25,569 nucleotides of DNA, from positions 1 to 25,569 of the IMG/VR virus record IMGVR_UViG_3300029286_000230; one strand, written 5' to 3'. The notes under the pieces are model-generated. The model saw nothing but the letters and a program-made list of their open reading frames with translations. It did no database searches and was not told the DNA's origin. This document shows, one piece after another, positions 2,439-25,569 of this stretch. How positions within the stretch are numbered: position 1 is the first letter of the stretch; each line of letters opens with the position of its first letter. The translations under genes were made by a program, and so were the position numbers. Source of the DNA: a virus.

Positions 2439-5400
2439 ATGGCTTACAAGTCTAAGTATTACATAGCGAAGGCATACACTCCTGCGCCTGATTACACGCA
2501 GTCTTACGATCTTATGGAAAAGATAGACACAGCATTGGGCGGAAATACAGGGCTTACATCTGGCTTTGAGGACTTTGACCTTACCACAAATATGTTGCCT
2601 AGCGAAGCAGATGCCTTTACTAAACAGAGATTAGCACGTTTGGCAAGCAACAAGACGGACTTTGAACAGGCGCAAGCAGATAAGATACCGACGTTGGGAG
2701 AAACAGTAGGTTCAACCGTGCTTGGAGCAGGAAAAGCTATTGGCGGTGCATTTGCTCAAGGAGTAGTCAATCTAGCTGGTAAAACAGCAGGTATGGTAGA
2801 ACGTCAAGCAACTGCTACTGTTGTCGATCCTAATAAAGGATTCTTTCAAAATATAGGCGATCAATTTGAACAGGCTAAAACATTTACCGAAAAGACACGA
2901 GCAGTCGGAAAAACAATGAGTATGCTTATTAACGTACTCAATCCGAAGTTTGCTGGAACTGGTGGTGAAGGTGGTCTAAAAGGCTTTTCCAGAGAAGGTG
3001 GTTCAGACATAGAAGCTGGATTAAAGCCAGTAGAGCAAGCTATTCAGTCTTTTGCTAACGTAGAAGGACAATCATTGCCTGTTCAAATTCTTGCTGGCGT
3101 TACAGGTTCGTTACCCACTTCGCTTGCTACGAAAGTTCCTGTTGTTGGCTGGTTCTTAATGGGCAACCAATCATTTAGAAATAGCATTGAACAAACTAGG
3201 GCACAAATGCTTGCTAGCGGAAAAGCCATAGACGAAAACACAATGTATCTCAAGGCACTTGGCGATACGGCTATTGAAGTTGGAACTGAAATGATGTTCC
3301 CAATGTTTAAGAAAGTAGGAGGAACTAAAACTGTTGGTTCGCTTGCTAATGCTAGTCGTGGTTTGTACGATGTTGCCAAAAGTGCAATACTAAAGAAACT
3401 AGGCAAAGAAGTAGCAACTGAAACAGTCGAAACGTTGGGCAAAACCATTATCAAACAAGCCGCAGAGGAAGGCTTTGAGGAATTTGTAGGTGCTTTCCTG
3501 TCTGGATTTCTTGCTAAGCAAACTACAATGACGGATACACCTCAATGGGGTGTTGGCGAGGACGAAGGACTAATTACTGTTGTCGGTGTTCTTAAAGCAG
3601 TTGCAAGCGGTTCGTTAAGCGGTGGTTTTGCTACTTACTTTCAGAATAGAAATGCTTTCAAGAATACGAAGAAAGCACTTGAAGAAGTTAATACTCAAAC
3701 AGTAGAAGAAGCATCAGAAGATGATTCTGTTAAAGATGTATTCAATGCAGTCAATATTGATATGCAAAATACAGACAATCAAGAAGCAGTTGCAGAGCAT
3801 TTAATAGACGTTATCGAAGAACCCGCTCAAGAAGCATATGCACAGTCAGAAGATACAACTCCAATTGAAGAACCTGTTGCTACTACCGAAGCCACAATTC
3901 CTTCTAACGCCCCTAGCGTGACCGTAGACGAGTTGCAGAGTCAAACACAGGAAAGTACACCAGAAACACAGCGAGCGGTTGTAGAGCCTTCTAGGTCGGT
4001 TGCCATGACCGAGGAAGAATATCTATCTTCAAAGAATCTCGGCAGACAAGGAATCGGAGAACCGGCTCTTGCGAAAAACATTGGCAAAGGAATTGCTAGA
4101 GAACAACTCATTGAACGTCAACGTGTAAAAGATGAACAGTATACGCAAGCCCGAGAAGTTGCCAGACAAGAATATCAGCAATTAGTTCAAGATGGAAAGA
4201 TAACTGTTCCTACTAAAATCGAACAGCGCATTAAAACTGCTCAAGGCAATCCAGAGAATCAGGCAGTACAATCCGCTCGTAGATTGCTTACTAAGCAAGG
4301 CATCTCTTGGGAACAGCCCACTATTGCACAAACTGCGCCTGTTGCAGAGCAAGTCACCGAGCAAGCACCGGCTAAACAGCCGAAAAAAGTATATACTACA
4401 GAACAGCTAAACACAGCAAAAAATAAGTTACTGAAAAGATTGCAAAATCCATTAAATGATTCTGATAAAGTTGACATACAGAATCAGATTGCAAAAATAG
4501 ATAAGGTTATTGCAAAACAAGAAAAATCAAGACTTGTCGCTGAATCTCAAAAGCAAGATACAAGTGGTGTTCAAGGCGTAGTTTCTTCTGCTTTTGTTAG
4601 TGGAATTAAAACTGACACAACTAACATACCAGAATGGAAGAAAACCATATCCAAAGAAACGGAACAATCGATTGATAGGGCATCTAAGCCCAATGCGGAT
4701 CAGTCGTTGCTTACTATGTTCCGGGAAAAACTTGCCAAGTTACACGAGAATGTAACACTTGGTTCTGTGCCAGTTGATGTTTCTAAGGGCGATATTAGAA
4801 AACTATTCAGAGAAGCCCGAGCGGCAAGCCAGTATGCGAAAGGACAAGCAGAAAACATTATATCCAAATCTTATAATAAAGCAGGAAAAGACAAGTATGA
4901 TCTTTTACGTCATGCGATTATCTATCTTGATATATCAGAAGATTTACAAGCAGGACTATATAATTCTGATTCTTCCATGATGTTTAACATTAACTCGCCA
5001 CAAGAAGCGTTGAAAACCATTGTGGAAATTAAAGCAGAACTTGCTAAACCGGAAAATGAATTAGTTCGTGAAGCATTAGATACAAGACGTAGTTTAATGG
5101 ACGAAGTTCGTGATGAAGTTATTACAGAAGGTGCAAAAGCTGGAATAGACCTAAAACACATTAAGTCTAAAGCAAATTATATGTACCATGCCGTTACTGA
5201 ATTTAGGGACGAGTTTAATGCGGCACTAAAAGCAAGAGGAACTAGGCGTGGTGTTGGTCGTGTGGAATACATGGCTCGTGTTGGTAGTGCGAAGGATTAT
5301 ATTTCAGACCCTATGATGGCTGATTATCTTGTTTTACAAAAAATGCACAAGGATCTTGCAAGATTGCGTCTATATAATGAAATTAAGACAGAAGATATTA

Positions 5401-7370
5401 GTAAGACAATGCCATATACGGAAGAGAAGGATTGGTCAATAAAACCAGGATATTCCGAACTTGATCCTAGTATGTTAGGAATTGTTGAGTTTGATAAATT
5501 TAGCAAGCAACAGGCTAAGTCAGTTGTGATGGCTAATCTAGAATCAAGAGGTATTGATCCTCATTCTGATGTTGGTAAACGTACTTTAGCGAAAATTATG
5601 ACCAAGTACAACAACCATGTAATGATCGTTCCTACACAAATTGTAGATGCAGTTGTAAATGAGTTCGCCAATAAAGAAACAAATTCTGGTAAAATGTTCA
5701 AGAATCTTATGAACGTATGGAAATACATGAAAATTAAGATGCCTAATGCTGTATGGAAGTACAACACTAGAAACTTATTTGGTGACCTTGATCCAGTTGT
5801 GTCTGCTAAACCAAATGCCTTGTTTAGAATACCTAGAGCGTTGAAAGAACTATATGGATTCTTTTATAAGGGCGGAGTGCTTACTAATGATCTGCAAGAT
5901 TATATTAAGCGTGGTGGTGTTACCACAGGACAGACACCACAAGAATTAAAGACATTCAACACATCAAAACTTATCAAAGTTTACGATCAATCGACAAAGA
6001 CTTCTGATGTTGCTAAAAAAGCAATCAGAAAGATATGGAGTGCGCTTACGTTGGAAACGGCTACTCAATACCGTGAACAGGTCATGCGGTATGCTACATA
6101 TCTTGCGTATAAATCGGAATTGTCTAAGAATGATACAGGACTACCCAAGTATTACGCTGCATCAATACCAGCTGAAATACAAGGGCTTAAAGACATAAAA
6201 GATCGTGCGTACAAGTTGTCAAATGATCTAGTTGGTGCTTATGATGATGTCTCTATAGCTGGACAATGGGCGTCTGATCATCTTATGCCTTTCTTTAGAT
6301 TCAAGGAAATCAATGTAAAGCGTAATTATCGTATGATTAAAAACGCATTTTATACTGATGGAGTTACGATTAAAAATACAGAACAGCAAGCAAGAAATAA
6401 ACTGGGCAATATTGCTAGGGCAAGTACATTTACAGTGTTTAGATTAACAAAACTATTATTGGGAACCGCCGCATTTTACGGCGCACTTGCCTTAGGTAAT
6501 GGACTACTTGCTGGTGATGATGAAGAAGAATTACCAGAAGATGTTAAGAATAGTCCACATATAACAATACCAAGATGGGTTACTGGTAGTAACAAGGTCT
6601 ACTACATTGACAGGCTTGGTTCTTTTGCTGAATTTATGAATATGTTTGGAATTGATTATTCTATGGGATCTGATTTGAACGATATCTCAACAGGGCGTAT
6701 GCAACTGTCAGATAAAATCAAAGAAATGGTGTCCGCACCTATTGGTGATGCTTTTAATAGTTCATGGCCTATCGCAAAAATTGCATTTGAATTAGTAACT
6801 GGAAAAACATATTTTCCAGATCCTAAGAATCCTGCAACCATTCGTGATACTTGGGAATATATCTTTGGACAAGTAGGGTTTAAGGATGAGTACAAAGCTA
6901 TTGCTGGCAAACCGATAGATCAAGGAAACTATTTAATGCAGAAAAGGGATATTCTGTTTAACAGTGTTATGCCGGGCGATGCTGCATTTTACGATGTGTA
7001 TGACATGGTTGACGAATACTACAAAAGCATTGGCGAATCAAACACCTTTATGAATTACATGGACAAGAACACTGACAAGTACAAAAAGTCACAAGCAGTT
7101 TATTATTACAAGTCTGCATTAAAACTTGGCGACACTCAAGCCGCTGCAAAGTATCTCGCTGAATACGTTCTTTACGGAGGTACGCAGAAAACACTGAAAG
7201 ATTCTATGGCATATCTTGATCCGACAAACGCATTAAGTGCTAAGAAAAAAGCTGCTTTCTTGGAATGGATTACGCCAGAAGAAAAAACCACATACGATGA
7301 AGCTATGAAATATTATAAGGAGTTATCAGAGTTAAGTTCAGGTATTGCATTTCCTACTAAAGCGAAATAG
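2439..7370 (+). CDS. Giant 1643-aa virion / DNA-ejection-type protein
   Basis: This is the largest gene of the window, four bases after the preceding stop. Hydrophobic Gly/Ala-rich segments occur near residues 85-115 and 205-235. A helix with an EEGFEEFVGAFLSGF-type motif (~345-360), seen in large structural or polyvalent phage proteins, follows. A Glu/Gln/Pro-rich linker spans ~420-640. Long helical domains follow, then a hydrophobic stretch around 1330-1355 (LLLGTAAFYGALALGNGLLA) that could cross a membrane. The end (PRWVTGSNKVYYIDRLGSF onward) resembles the large polyvalent-protein-associated (LPD38-like) C-terminal regions, from memory. I infer a virion protein delivered with or threading the DNA, analogous in position to T7 internal proteins. 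No lytic transglycosylase motif was recognised. It stops with TAG. Confidence 0.55.
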   Translation: MAYKSKYYIAKAYTPAPDYTQSYDLMEKIDTALGGNTGLTSGFEDFDLTTNMLPSEADAFTKQRLARLASNKTDFEQAQADKIPTLGETVGSTVLGAGKAIGGAFAQGVVNLAGKTAGMVERQATATVVDPNKGFFQNIGDQFEQAKTFTEKTRAVGKTMSMLINVLNPKFAGTGGEGGLKGFSREGGSDIEAGLKPVEQAIQSFANVEGQSLPVQILAGVTGSLPTSLATKVPVVGWFLMGNQSFRNSIEQTRAQMLASGKAIDENTMYLKALGDTAIEVGTEMMFPMFKKVGGTKTVGSLANASRGLYDVAKSAILKKLGKEVATETVETLGKTIIKQAAEEGFEEFVGAFLSGFLAKQTTMTDTPQWGVGEDEGLITVVGVLKAVASGSLSGGFATYFQNRNAFKNTKKALEEVNTQTVEEASEDDSVKDVFNAVNIDMQNTDNQEAVAEHLIDVIEEPAQEAYAQSEDTTPIEEPVATTEATIPSNAPSVTVDELQSQTQESTPETQRAVVEPSRSVAMTEEEYLSSKNLGRQGIGEPALAKNIGKGIAREQLIERQRVKDEQYTQAREVARQEYQQLVQDGKITVPTKIEQRIKTAQGNPENQAVQSARRLLTKQGISWEQPTIAQTAPVAEQVTEQAPAKQPKKVYTTEQLNTAKNKLLKRLQNPLNDSDKVDIQNQIAKIDKVIAKQEKSRLVAESQKQDTSGVQGVVSSAFVSGIKTDTTNIPEWKKTISKETEQSIDRASKPNADQSLLTMFREKLAKLHENVTLGSVPVDVSKGDIRKLFREARAASQYAKGQAENIISKSYNKAGKDKYDLLRHAIIYLDISEDLQAGLYNSDSSMMFNINSPQEALKTIVEIKAELAKPENELVREALDTRRSLMDEVRDEVITEGAKAGIDLKHIKSKANYMYHAVTEFRDEFNAALKARGTRRGVGRVEYMARVGSAKDYISDPMMADYLVLQKMHKDLARLRLYNEIKTEDISKTMPYTEEKDWSIKPGYSELDPSMLGIVEFDKFSKQQAKSVVMANLESRGIDPHSDVGKRTLAKIMTKYNNHVMIVPTQIVDAVVNEFANKETNSGKMFKNLMNVWKYMKIKMPNAVWKYNTRNLFGDLDPVVSAKPNALFRIPRALKELYGFFYKGGVLTNDLQDYIKRGGVTTGQTPQELKTFNTSKLIKVYDQSTKTSDVAKKAIRKIWSALTLETATQYREQVMRYATYLAYKSELSKNDTGLPKYYAASIPAEIQGLKDIKDRAYKLSNDLVGAYDDVSIAGQWASDHLMPFFRFKEINVKRNYRMIKNAFYTDGVTIKNTEQQARNKLGNIARASTFTVFRLTKLLLGTAAFYGALALGNGLLAGDDEEELPEDVKNSPHITIPRWVTGSNKVYYIDRLGSFAEFMNMFGIDYSMGSDLNDISTGRMQLSDKIKEMVSAPIGDAFNSSWPIAKIAFELVTGKTYFPDPKNPATIRDTWEYIFGQVGFKDEYKAIAGKPIDQGNYLMQKRDILFNSVMPGDAAFYDVYDMVDEYYKSIGESNTFMNYMDKNTDKYKKSQAVYYYKSALKLGDTQAAAKYLAEYVLYGGTQKTLKDSMAYLDPTNALSAKKKAAFLEWITPEEKTTYDEAMKYYKELSELSSGIAFPTKAK

Positions 7371-12957: not shown

Positions 12958-13302
12958 TTATACAATGTCGGAAGCGTCTGGACTGTTTAGCAGTTCTATC
13001 ATCGCTTTGATTGCATCTTCGTGATAATGAAAACGTCCTGCATCGTTGACATATGTAATGACCGAAATATCATCGGGATAATCTTGTCGTTCCTCACAGA
13101 CTGTTCGTAAATCAGCTAATGACTCAACCGTCATCTCCGCCATGATCCGCTCGTAGCGTGTTTGCGGCTGTTTCTTTTTGTGAGAGCGTATGTATAACGG
13201 GCAGTCATCGCCATACTTTGCATACAATCTACACTGTTTGTCTTCGCCATTCCAAAAGCCTTCAAGATTTGAATTGTTTCTGCACGTTTCGCACTCGCTC
13301 AT
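12958..13302 (-). CDS. Cys-rich hypothetical protein (114 aa)
   Basis: ATGA overlap with the upstream HTH gene fixes the start at 13302. Residues 4-35 contain CETCRN...CRLYAKYGDDCPLY, four cysteines arranged as a small zinc-binding knuckle. The middle is basic (HKKKQPQTRYERIMAEM), and the remainder is acidic and helical. This N-terminal zinc knuckle plus RYERIMAEMTVE-type helix recurs in small phage proteins of unknown role. Confidence 0.7.
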   Translation of the reverse strand: MSECETCRNNSNLEGFWNGEDKQCRLYAKYGDDCPLYIRSHKKKQPQTRYERIMAEMTVESLADLRTVCEERQDYPDDISVITYVNDAGRFHYHEDAIKAMIELLNSPDASDIV

Positions 13303-13619
13303 TTCTTCACCCTATCCCTTCTGCTAAAATCCCAACCTTGCTTTCGCCATCTGCTAATCATCTTGTACGCTACTTCTTCGCAACTGAATCCGTATGTGTC
13401 TGTAATCTTTGTTATGCTCATTCTGGCGTTCCAGTCGTGCATAATCATCGGTATGTTGTGCTTTGTCTGATGACCTGGAGGTTGAATTATGATGTTGTTC
13501 TCTCGCAAAACCTTGTTTATTGTTCCCCTGCTAAATCCTGTTAGTGTTGATACTTTCTTCTGCGACTTGAGTATCTTGTACTGATCTATTATAAGTTGGT
13601 GTTGTATTAGGTTAAGCAC
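13299..13619 (-). CDS. Helix-turn-helix DNA-binding protein (106 aa)
   Basis: GTG 13619 is preceded by AGGAGGGATAAC. Residues ~20-40 (KKVSTLTGFSRGTINKVLRE) look like a recognition HTH. A second HTH-like segment, SITKITDTYGFSCEEVAYKM, sits around residues 68-87, and the tail is basic (RRDRVKK). Two DNA-binding segments suggest a transcriptional regulator or a small DNA-processing factor. It is first in its sub-cluster, and directly upstream lies a duplicated ~95-base element, so it could be controlled by, or act on, that element. Confidence 0.65.
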   Translation of the reverse strand: MLNLIQHQLIIDQYKILKSQKKVSTLTGFSRGTINKVLRENNIIIQPPGHQTKHNIPMIMHDWNARMSITKITDTYGFSCEEVAYKMISRWRKQGWDFSRRDRVKK

Positions 13620-20766: not shown

Positions 20767-21291
20767 ATGTCTAAGAAATACAGCAAGGATAAGTCGGAAA
20801 TGCCTATAGCAGTAGATAAATCAGTCTATGACGTAGCAATTGACTATGCACTAATAGATTATATAGCATCAAAGCATATGCTTACCAGGTGGCACGAGGA
20901 AAATGACGGATTAAAAAAATCACATAGCATTTCGCTACTTTCAGAAGGCTGGACTAATGCGGAAATAGCTAAGGGGCTTGGAATAACTCGTTCAACTATG
21001 GAAATTTGGTCTGAATCTGACGAGTTATACAAGAAATGCCTGGAATTTGTGCATCAGATCAAAGTTAAAGACACAGAGCAAATGGCTTGGAAAATTGCTC
21101 TTGATAATCCTAATGCAACTAATGAAAGAGCGATGGTGATTAAGGCTGAAATTCCTAAATACAGAGAAAATGCTATCGCTCCTGGTGCAAATGTAACTAT
21201 GTTAAGAATTAGCCTGAATGGGAATGACCTTGACGTTTCTGCCAATTTCAAACCCATTCAAACAGCTTTACCAGATGCAGACGATGATTAA
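20767..21291 (+). CDS. Terminase small subunit-like / HTH DNA-binding protein (174 aa)
   Basis: This is the only plus-strand gene inside the leftward cluster. Residues ~62-88 (GWTNAEIAKGLGITRSTMEI WSES) form a homeodomain-like HTH of the type in phage small terminase subunits. It is followed by helices (QMAWKIALDNPNATNERAM) and an EIPKYRENAIAPG segment, also common in small terminases, then a strand and an acidic tail (ALPDADDD). If a terminase subunit it would recognise the packaging site. Its isolation and private, palindrome-flanked promoter equally suit a regulator. The RBS is weak (GGTGAATTA). It converges on the next gene with three bases between the stop codons. Confidence 0.6.
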   Translation: MSKKYSKDKSEMPIAVDKSVYDVAIDYALIDYIASKHMLTRWHEENDGLKKSHSISLLSEGWTNAEIAKGLGITRSTMEIWSESDELYKKCLEFVHQIKVKDTEQMAWKIALDNPNATNERAMVIKAEIPKYRENAIAPGANVTMLRISLNGNDLDVSANFKPIQTALPDADDD

Positions 21292-23112: not shown

Positions 23113-23164
23113 TTGTGAACGTAGTATGTATGGATTGTGAACAGTTTGTGAACAGTTTGTGAAT
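23113..23164. repeat. TTGTGAAC direct repeats phased at 11 bp
   Basis: TTGTGAAC starts at 23113, 23135 and 23146, with TTGTGAAT at 23157; all offsets are multiples of 11 bases. The last three are adjacent copies of an 11-base unit (TTGTGAACAGT). The array lies between two leftward genes, touching the stop codon of the clamp-like gene. Confidence 0.8.
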
Positions 23165-24052: not shown

Positions 24053-24086
24053 GTCCTTGCCCTTCTTTCGTTTGGTCTATGGCGTC

Positions 24087-24115
24087 ATTGTATCGTGCAT
24101 ATTTATGCAAGTCAA
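24087..24115 (-). promoter_or_regulatory. Main leftward early promoter with palindromic spacer
   Basis: On the minus strand TTGACT (24110-24115), a 17-base spacer and TACAAT (24087-24092) match sigma70 5/6 and 5/6. The spacer contains the perfect palindrome TGCATA-TT-TATGCA (24096-24109), an obvious place for a repressor to bind. Confidence 0.7.
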
Positions 24116-24207
24116 TAGCTTTTCTTGTTTGTTCACAGAATGTTCATAATCTTATATTGCTGTGTTTCCTGGAAGGACAATTCGGGCAAAGTGTCCGTCA
24201 GTGGTGG

Positions 24208-24381
24208 ACAGTGTTGCAGATGCGAATAAGGCCATATGCTGTGTACGTGATCTGGCTTGATCTGGCAGGGCATGGCAGGCCGGCAGTCAGTAGGATAGCA
24301 GGCAAGGCATGTCATACGAGTACGCTTGTACAGTGTTGCATGATACGCTTGTACAGTGTTAGCACGTAGCTGTACAGTGTT
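24208..24381. repeat. Iteron-like direct repeats (ACAGTGTT family)
   Basis: TACGCTTGTACAGTGTT occurs at 24321-24337 and again at 24344-24360 (23-base period). A third partial copy TGTACAGTGTT is at 24371-24381 and an ACAGTGTT core at 24208-24215. TGATCTGGC is also repeated at 24248 and 24258. Confidence 0.75.
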
Positions 24382-24590
24382 GGGCAACAGATGCGATCAG
24401 ATGCATGATGCATGGCTAGGCATGACTGTGTAGCATAGGGCGCTGTTATTGCGTGCTTATTTGTATCGCGCGCGTTCATTCAGTGGGCAGGGGCAGGGGG
24501 CTACGTCGGCATGGGGGGACGGGGTCTCTGTATAGAGTATTACCCACAAACAAATTCTGGCTCTGAAAAAGTGCTTTTCGTTGAAGGCAC

Positions 24591-24668
24591 CTAGCGTGAC
24601 TGTGGACGCATTTCGATGGCAGGTAGGGTACTTTTATTACTAAATAGTAGCAAGGGGCTTGTAGGGGC
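24591..24668. repeat. Duplicated intergenic element, copy A
   Basis: CTAGCGTGAC (24591-24600), a middle with CGCATTT, GGTAGGGTACTTTTATTA, and AGGGGCTTGTAGGGGC (24653-24668) match copy B at 13630-13725 in order and orientation, with 18 fewer bases between the blocks. Confidence 0.6.
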
Positions 24669-24935
24669 TTGTAGAGGGCTTAGAATTGATGCTAGGGCAT
24701 GGGAGCAGGTTGTGCGTACGCATTGAGCATATAATGCAGATGGAAATGCATAATGCAAGAGAGTTGTAACCAAGAGATGTAAAAACAAAGGGCGAGTGCA
24801 TAAGTCAAGTTTGGGAAGTAATTTAAGGCAAGAGCGAAGCGAGAAGGTTGTTCACTTGGGAAAGAAGGGGGAAGCACCGCTAAGTGAGTGTAACGAACAA
24901 GTGGAGTAAGGGGTTAAATGTTCTCTTTGGAATTA

Positions 24936-25022
24936 GGGTGGAAGGGGGACTATAGGGGGTAGGGGGATAAAAGGGATTGTAAGGGAAAGAAGGGGGAAGG
25001 GGGGAAAAGGGGGCAGGAGGGG
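24936..25022 (+). other. Array of ten G-tracts with quadruplex potential
   Basis: On the plus strand runs of three to six G's start at 24936, 24944, 24955, 24962, 24973, 24983, 24992, 24999, 25009 and 25019. The set 24992-25022 (G5, G6, G5, G4 with 2-5 base loops) and the set 24936-24966 each satisfy a G-quadruplex pattern. The stretch is almost pure purine and lies 37 bases before the rightward promoter. Confidence 0.85.
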
Positions 25023-25058
25023 AAAGACCTTTCTCTTGTTGTTTAAAGTCCCCAATAT

Positions 25059-25087
25059 TTGACAATTTGAGGGACAAGTGCTAGGGT
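25059..25087 (+). promoter_or_regulatory. Rightward promoter before the HTH gene
   Basis: A perfect TTGACA (25059-25064), 17-base spacer and TAGGGT (25082-25087) with TG at 25079-25080 form a plausible extended promoter 26 bases before ATG 25113. The -10 matches consensus at only three positions. Confidence 0.55.
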
Positions 25088-25112
25088 ATAGAAAACGGCA
25101 GGAGGATTTCAA

Positions 25113-25569
25113 ATGCAAGAGTGGCAAGACAGAAGTTTGGAACTGCACAGGCAAGGGCTGACGTACAACGAGATAGCAGGGGTTTTGGAGAGGGAGTTTG
25201 GCGAGGGGTTCACACACGGCAGGGTTAGAGGGTTTATACGCAGGAACAGGGGCGAAACTGTTGTAGACGATTCTAGAGGCATTACAGACGATTCTGGATA
25301 CAAGGAAACAGTCAAGGTCAACGCAGACGGAAGTGTTTACAGGGATTGCCTAATCGAGATCATGGAAGATGTTCCCATCACTCCTGACAGCATCTTGTCC
25401 GCACACGGACTACAACCTGGATTATGGCAAGTTGTTTCATATACCAATAACCGTTGGCACAGTCAGAGCAAACTGCAAGAGCATATTGTGCAGTATCAAA
25501 GCAAGTTAAGTGCTAAACCTATTGCTAGTAAAGTTACTTTTGACATGATAGACGAATGCTTCTCTAGTC
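25113..25569 (+). CDS. HTH-containing phage protein, 5' part (3' end outside window)
   Basis: GGAGG at 25101-25105 precedes ATG 25113, and 152 codons remain open to the window end. Residues 1-46 (MQEWQDRSLELHRQGLTYNE, IAGVLEREFGEGFTHGRVRG) form a helix-turn-helix. An acidic linker with a repeated DDSxG follows. Then comes ITPDSILSAHGLQPGLWQVV and NNRWHSQ, a segment I recall in phage proteins that carry a C-terminal calcineurin-like phosphoesterase; that part would lie beyond the window. It begins the rightward transcription unit, so it may be an early regulator or DNA-processing enzyme. Confidence 0.6.
   Translation, partial: MQEWQDRSLELHRQGLTYNEIAGVLEREFGEGFTHGRVRGFIRRNRGETVVDDSRGITDDSGYKETVKVNADGSVYRDCLIEIMEDVPITPDSILSAHGLQPGLWQVVSYTNNRWHSQSKLQEHIVQYQSKLSAKPIASKVTFDMIDECFSS

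Follow-up and report, generated by a model that had tools for sequence, protein, structure and literature searches.

Phage regions that control early and late genes are usually recognized by their motifs. In Ceduovirus (lactococcal phage c2), the replication origin is located in the intergenic gap between the early and late genes, which is partly transcribed but non-coding (PMC7150918). In phage SPP1, the small terminase binds DNA at pac that overlaps the late promoters and the first late gene (PMC6316719), and for mitochondrial CSBII, where G-runs are dense on one strand of a non-coding control region, priming by a hybrid quadruplex is established (PMC6317783). The locus analysed here lies in a DNA stretch of 25,569 bases (hereafter, the window) that constitutes a single viral record. 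As in Ceduovirus, a non-coding gap separates divergent early and late blocks, with promoters on both sides, and the sequence varies between groups while the place and, apparently, the role persist. However, an intergenic query matched no Ceduovirus record, and the phage c2 gap is AT-rich, with the G/C bias on the other strand. As in the case of SPP1 pac/PL1-PL2, putative control DNA is found at the start of the late genes, with a G-rich tract ending 37 bp before the probable -35 box, and the large terminase resembles PBSX/SPP1-type proteins; unlike SPP1 pac, the tract does not overlap the small-terminase-like gene (20767-21291). The dense one-strand G-runs resemble those of CSBII, but there is no homology, the quadruplex of the window is predicted only, and there is no sign of transcription through the tract.

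The leftward genes occupy the stretch between 24052 and about 9600; among their products are a beta-clamp-like protein, a RecT-like protein, an RNA ligase, a replication initiator and a DnaB-like helicase; the rightward late block starts at 25113. The same phage is continued by contig IMGVR_UViG_3300029286_000330 (G001), the end of which overlaps the first 127 bases of the window exactly, and the two together amount to a genome of about 44 kb. The start of G001 matches the last gene of the window at 97%, with a 63-base in-frame deletion (21 residues; window ~25374-25436; L002:1-160), a variant that suggests strain variation or a contig-end artefact. G001 encodes a PBSX/SPP1-type large terminase and an SU10-like portal protein; the latter has no match among annotated phages and, hence, the lineage appears to be uncultured. 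The features of the region between the two blocks are listed in Table 1. The promoters, called with a simple sigma-70 score against shuffled sequences, represent consensus matches only; the score of the late one (11.5) is just below the 95% shuffle level (11.8). Nevertheless, the arrangement of the genes in divergent directions, with a probable promoter for the early block on one flank and one for the late block on the other, supports the assignment of a control region. The GC skew of the region is 0.36, rising to 0.54 in its last 400 nt.

Table 1. Features of the early/late intergenic region and its borders (window coordinates).
Feature	Coordinates	Strand	Basis
Non-coding region between divergent early (-) and late (+) genes, 1.06 kb	24053..25112		ORF map
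Probable early promoter, TTGACT-17-TACAAT	24087..24115	-	Best - strand score, 12.4 versus shuffle 95% level of 11.4
Probable early operator, TTATGAACATTCTGTGAACAA	24129..24150	-	41-bp match to the corresponding position of L020, E=0.001
Three iteron-like direct repeats (CTTGTACAGTGTT), period ~23 bp, TGTACA core	24316..24382	+	Repeat search
Second G-run cluster, five runs	24485..24524	+	Run count, ViennaRNA
Motif TGTAT-TATTACCCACAAA, DnaA-box-like, common to the window and L020	24529..24550	+	Intergenic comparison
C-poor tract with ten G-runs, core of the control element proposed here	24936..25022	+	Run counts, composition controls, ViennaRNA
Probable late promoter, TTGACA-17-TAGGGT, TGC before second box	25059..25087	+	Best + strand match of region
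First late gene, HTH + metallophosphoesterase-like, cut by window end	25113..25569	+	AGGAGG ahead of ATG

The initial annotation described the tract as ten G-runs at intervals of 7-11 bases, just upstream of a promoter. Direct counting confirmed exactly ten runs of at least three G on the + strand (lengths 3, 5, 5, 5, 3, 3, 5, 6, 5 and 4), starting 7-11 nt apart and separated by loops of 2-7 nt, and the probable late promoter is indeed the next element downstream. The tract is not purine-only, as had been stated: purines account for 77 of the 87 bases (89%), accompanied by 8 T and 2 C, and the longest unbroken purine stretch is 33 nt (24981-25013). All 87 bases satisfy the canonical quadruplex rule (at least four G3+ runs, loops of 1-7 nt), and ViennaRNA, with quadruplexes allowed, lowered the predicted energy of the + strand as RNA from -1.3 to -43.9 kcal/mol, in agreement with the strong quadruplex potential originally proposed. 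The cluster is also as unusual as had been suspected. It is the strongest in the window and has no comparable counterpart elsewhere in it (maxima per 87 nt across the window, 10 G-runs on the + strand and 3 on the - strand), and none of 200 Markov copies of the whole window exceeded 6 runs per 87 nt. Ten runs were reached in 2 of 5000 copies with the composition of the intergenic region and in 27 of 5000 with that of its even G-richer right half; thus, the clustering is genuine, although partly due to the general G-richness of the right half. The second G-cluster that had been pointed out (Table 1) is real, and the G4Hunter-positive stretches of the window mostly lie in, or adjoin, the non-coding region; for orientation only, the G4Hunter average in Firmicutes phages is 0.32 hits/kb (PMC8036883). 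A coding function of the tract was rejected, given that two of the three + frames contain stops and the other frames are G/R/K/E-rich or P-rich shadows without start context. Rfam and tRNA scans of the window returned no matches.

The G-runs had been assigned to the non-template strand, a designation that is meaningful only if an upstream promoter reads through the tract; the probable late promoter starts downstream of it. Among the effects originally envisaged, one on early transcription appears to fit the position of the tract less well than a late-promoter, origin or packaging site, because the early promoter is ~0.8 kb away.

To place the tract in a broader context, we collected relatives via the portal protein, which yielded sixteen viral loci. 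Six contigs (the window, L018, L020, L024, L025 and L026) have a non-coding stretch before the first late gene, and leftward early genes are visible across the gap in all of these except L018, which is cut, and L026, which was mapped only in part. In all six, the 150 nt with the highest G-over-C skew of the locus, on either strand, either span the start of the first late gene or lie no more than 550 nt ahead of it; this test was devised after the layout had been seen, and L025 and L026 are related, so that the six contigs are not independent. In L019, L022, L023 and L027, the terminase directly adjoins other genes, with no gap between, and the skew maximum does not occupy this position. The late strand of the six regions carries 10-30 G3+ runs per kb and 0-9 C3+ runs per kb, compared with a locus mean of 5-9 runs per kb per strand, and late-sense G-runs outnumber C-runs in each contig. 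Conservation of the G-runs, an expectation of the initial annotation, therefore holds for their excess on the same strand in all six contigs but not for fixed positions, and for the tract of the window, which no close relative covers, it refers to composition bias rather than exact letters.

Neutral evolution of low-complexity DNA, through slippage or strand-biased mutation, could leave a similar imprint, and short imperfect repeats are present within the window tract at 24990-25025. This explanation is disfavoured and, in our estimate, extremely improbable, considering that the G-rich bias recurs at the same place in six contigs and that one pair of tracts is extremely conserved (see below). 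Furthermore, fourfold-degenerate sites of the late genes do not share the bias (GC skew of -0.10 to +0.25; tract halves, +0.47 to +0.75), so mutational skew was rejected as its cause.

Divergent promoter pairs were also detected with the sigma-70 score in L020, L025 and L026, the late one being weak in L025; the early promoter of L024 scored weakly. The tract precedes the late promoter in four contigs (the window, L018, L025 and L026), an arrangement suggestive of a function as DNA. The skew maximum of L020 (6413-6562) lies for the most part downstream of its best late-promoter match (6406-6433) and would be a transcribed leader, and in L024, the skewed tract straddles the promoter; on the strength of these two contigs, roles at the RNA level are conceivable as well. 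DNA searches against annotated phages with the region and with the L025 tract yielded nothing useful, two contig scans with portal alignments found no relatives, and a plasmid search produced one weak match only (22.5%). L003 was rejected as a relative because its match was due to chance, and among the metallophosphoesterase relatives L007-L014, the parts examined contained no syntenic late region, and no G4 pattern was seen immediately upstream.

The strongest case for function comes from L025 and L026. The shared genes of the two contigs are 73% identical (27% of the bases differ), but a 67-bp purine tract is 97% identical; this tract, AAGAGAAGAGATATAGAGATAAGATAGGGGTGCAGGGGGAAGAGAAGAGGAGAAG, lies between the divergent -35 boxes and is unchanged over 55 bases, and the promoter beside it is not conserved. 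When divergence at 73% identity was simulated in 2000 trials, the longest perfect run had a median of 22 and a maximum of 50, and the next longest identical run actually observed in the pair is 30. The 55-bp identity thus exceeds anything simulated, which is strong evidence that the tract is a functional DNA element, and its placement between the two -35 boxes implies that it is transcribed by neither promoter. An exact-pattern scan found the tract in these two contigs only.

The same pair bears on an explanation that invokes RNA, namely, that the C-rich, G-poor complement serves, in leftward transcripts, as a Rho loading site halting antisense transcription from the late side. Consistent with this, C and pyrimidine-C steps abound in the minus-strand sequence of the window, L025 and L026 tracts. 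We nevertheless hold this to be very unlikely, given that Rho sites require no exact sequence, yet 55 bp are unchanged in L025/L026, and that the sigma-70 score revealed no evident strong leftward promoter downstream of the tract.

ViennaRNA predicted no quadruplex in the L025, L026, L018, L020 or L024 regions. Judging from this comparison, the conserved property is a C-poor, purine/G-rich late-sense strand, of which the quadruplex potential is the extreme version in the window phage. Because the best-conserved tract, that of L025/L026, comes without a predicted quadruplex, the G4 is not established as the selected property. A lineage-wide polypurine, C-depleted switch element in which the quadruplex or R-loop potential of the late strand itself controls the early-to-late change or primes replication appears distinctly unlikely.

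Selection probably maintains the G-rich tract as a DNA control element at the border of the early and late genes. From its position, strand bias, recurrence in relatives and strong sequence conservation in one pair, we infer a role at the DNA level, a protein reader and control of late transcription. Specifically, the reading that we prefer, with about even confidence, is that the tract forms the late-promoter-proximal half of a cis-acting control region dividing the early from the late genes of this lineage and is kept C-poor as a duplex-level recognition element for the switch. Selection would hold the late-sense strand purine/G-rich and C-poor; the duplex would be a recognition or structural element for a phage protein, such as a late regulator or the small terminase, and, when read by this protein, may help to set the early-to-late switch. 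In the window phage, the G-runs are dense enough that one or two quadruplexes might form when the duplex opens, an added rather than shared property. The most likely function of the tract is thus recognition in late transcription, and it may serve as an origin or packaging site as well. The common signature is strand composition, G-rich and C-poor, recurring without sequence except in one near-frozen pair. If functional, it would make it simple to find switch regions, origins or packaging sites in phages that have not been cultured, and would allow a natural test of a regulatory role of quadruplex-prone DNA in phage development.

The remainder of the intergenic region carries motifs of its own. 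The counterpart of the early promoter in L020 is an equivalent best - strand match (score 14.1), and the operator match between the window and L020 takes in the -35 box. The TGTGAACA/TATGAACA motif is repeated near early promoters with a spacing of ~11 bp (window 23135-23163 and 24129-24150, L020:5834-5855, L018:48-75) and is a probable early-gene operator. Comparison of the window and L020 intergenic regions identified a 14-bp exact match at the TGTAT-TATTACCCACAAA motif, a pattern that, among 14 records, is found only in those of the window and L020. The ~23-bp iterons have no exact copies elsewhere in the window.

These iterons and the DnaA-box-like motif shared with L020, together with an initiator gene that lacks strong iterons, are compatible with the tract being part of an origin, in which replication would be primed by an R-loop that transcription through the G-rich strand leaves behind and that a hybrid quadruplex may hold in place. 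The Ceduovirus origin, in the same kind of gap with its transcribed non-coding part, and the hybrid quadruplex of CSBII provide precedents for the location and the priming, respectively. However, there is no good rightward promoter upstream of the tract (best scores, 10.1 with 15-nt spacing and 8.0), the L025/L026 tract lies outside both flanking transcripts, no AT-rich unwinding element is found beside the iterons of the window, and the phage c2 gap shows no comparable late-strand G skew. We regard this reading as doubtful.

Packaging is the other activity for which the position would be suitable, with the tract as a pac-like initiation site that is bound by the small terminase and adjoins the late genes, as SPP1 pac does. 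The first late gene is a small-terminase homologue in L024 and encodes the large terminase in L018 and L025, and the exact 127-bp overlap between the ends of the window and G001, with the late gene at the other ends, is as expected for a circular or redundant map. Nonetheless, we consider such a site unlikely in view of the distance of the small-terminase-like gene of the window from the tract. In the window and in L020, the contig continues through this locus without a break, evidence against a fixed non-redundant end (cos) but compatible with headful pac. Switch, origin and packaging roles could also coexist, which is conceivable because SPP1 pac overlaps its late promoters.

Several other features were noted along the way. 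In phage c2, a G-rich tract adjoins the cos end (L042:22124-22158). In the window, the small-terminase-like gene (+ strand) is embedded in the early block and separated from the large terminase gene, which is not the case in L020 and L024. Positions 1-286 of the window, at the contig start that overlaps G001, contain a tandem 150-bp repeat (98% match) within a late gene. The 1643-aa protein encoded at 2439-7370 belongs to no PHROG or Pfam family and has only weak matches, to Lactobacillus phage proteins. An HTH-like protein is encoded at 13299-13619. Finally, a Hint/intein-like insertion splits the large terminase gene at L002:1804-4290, and a different frame there harbours a nested HNH-like ORF (3489-4016).
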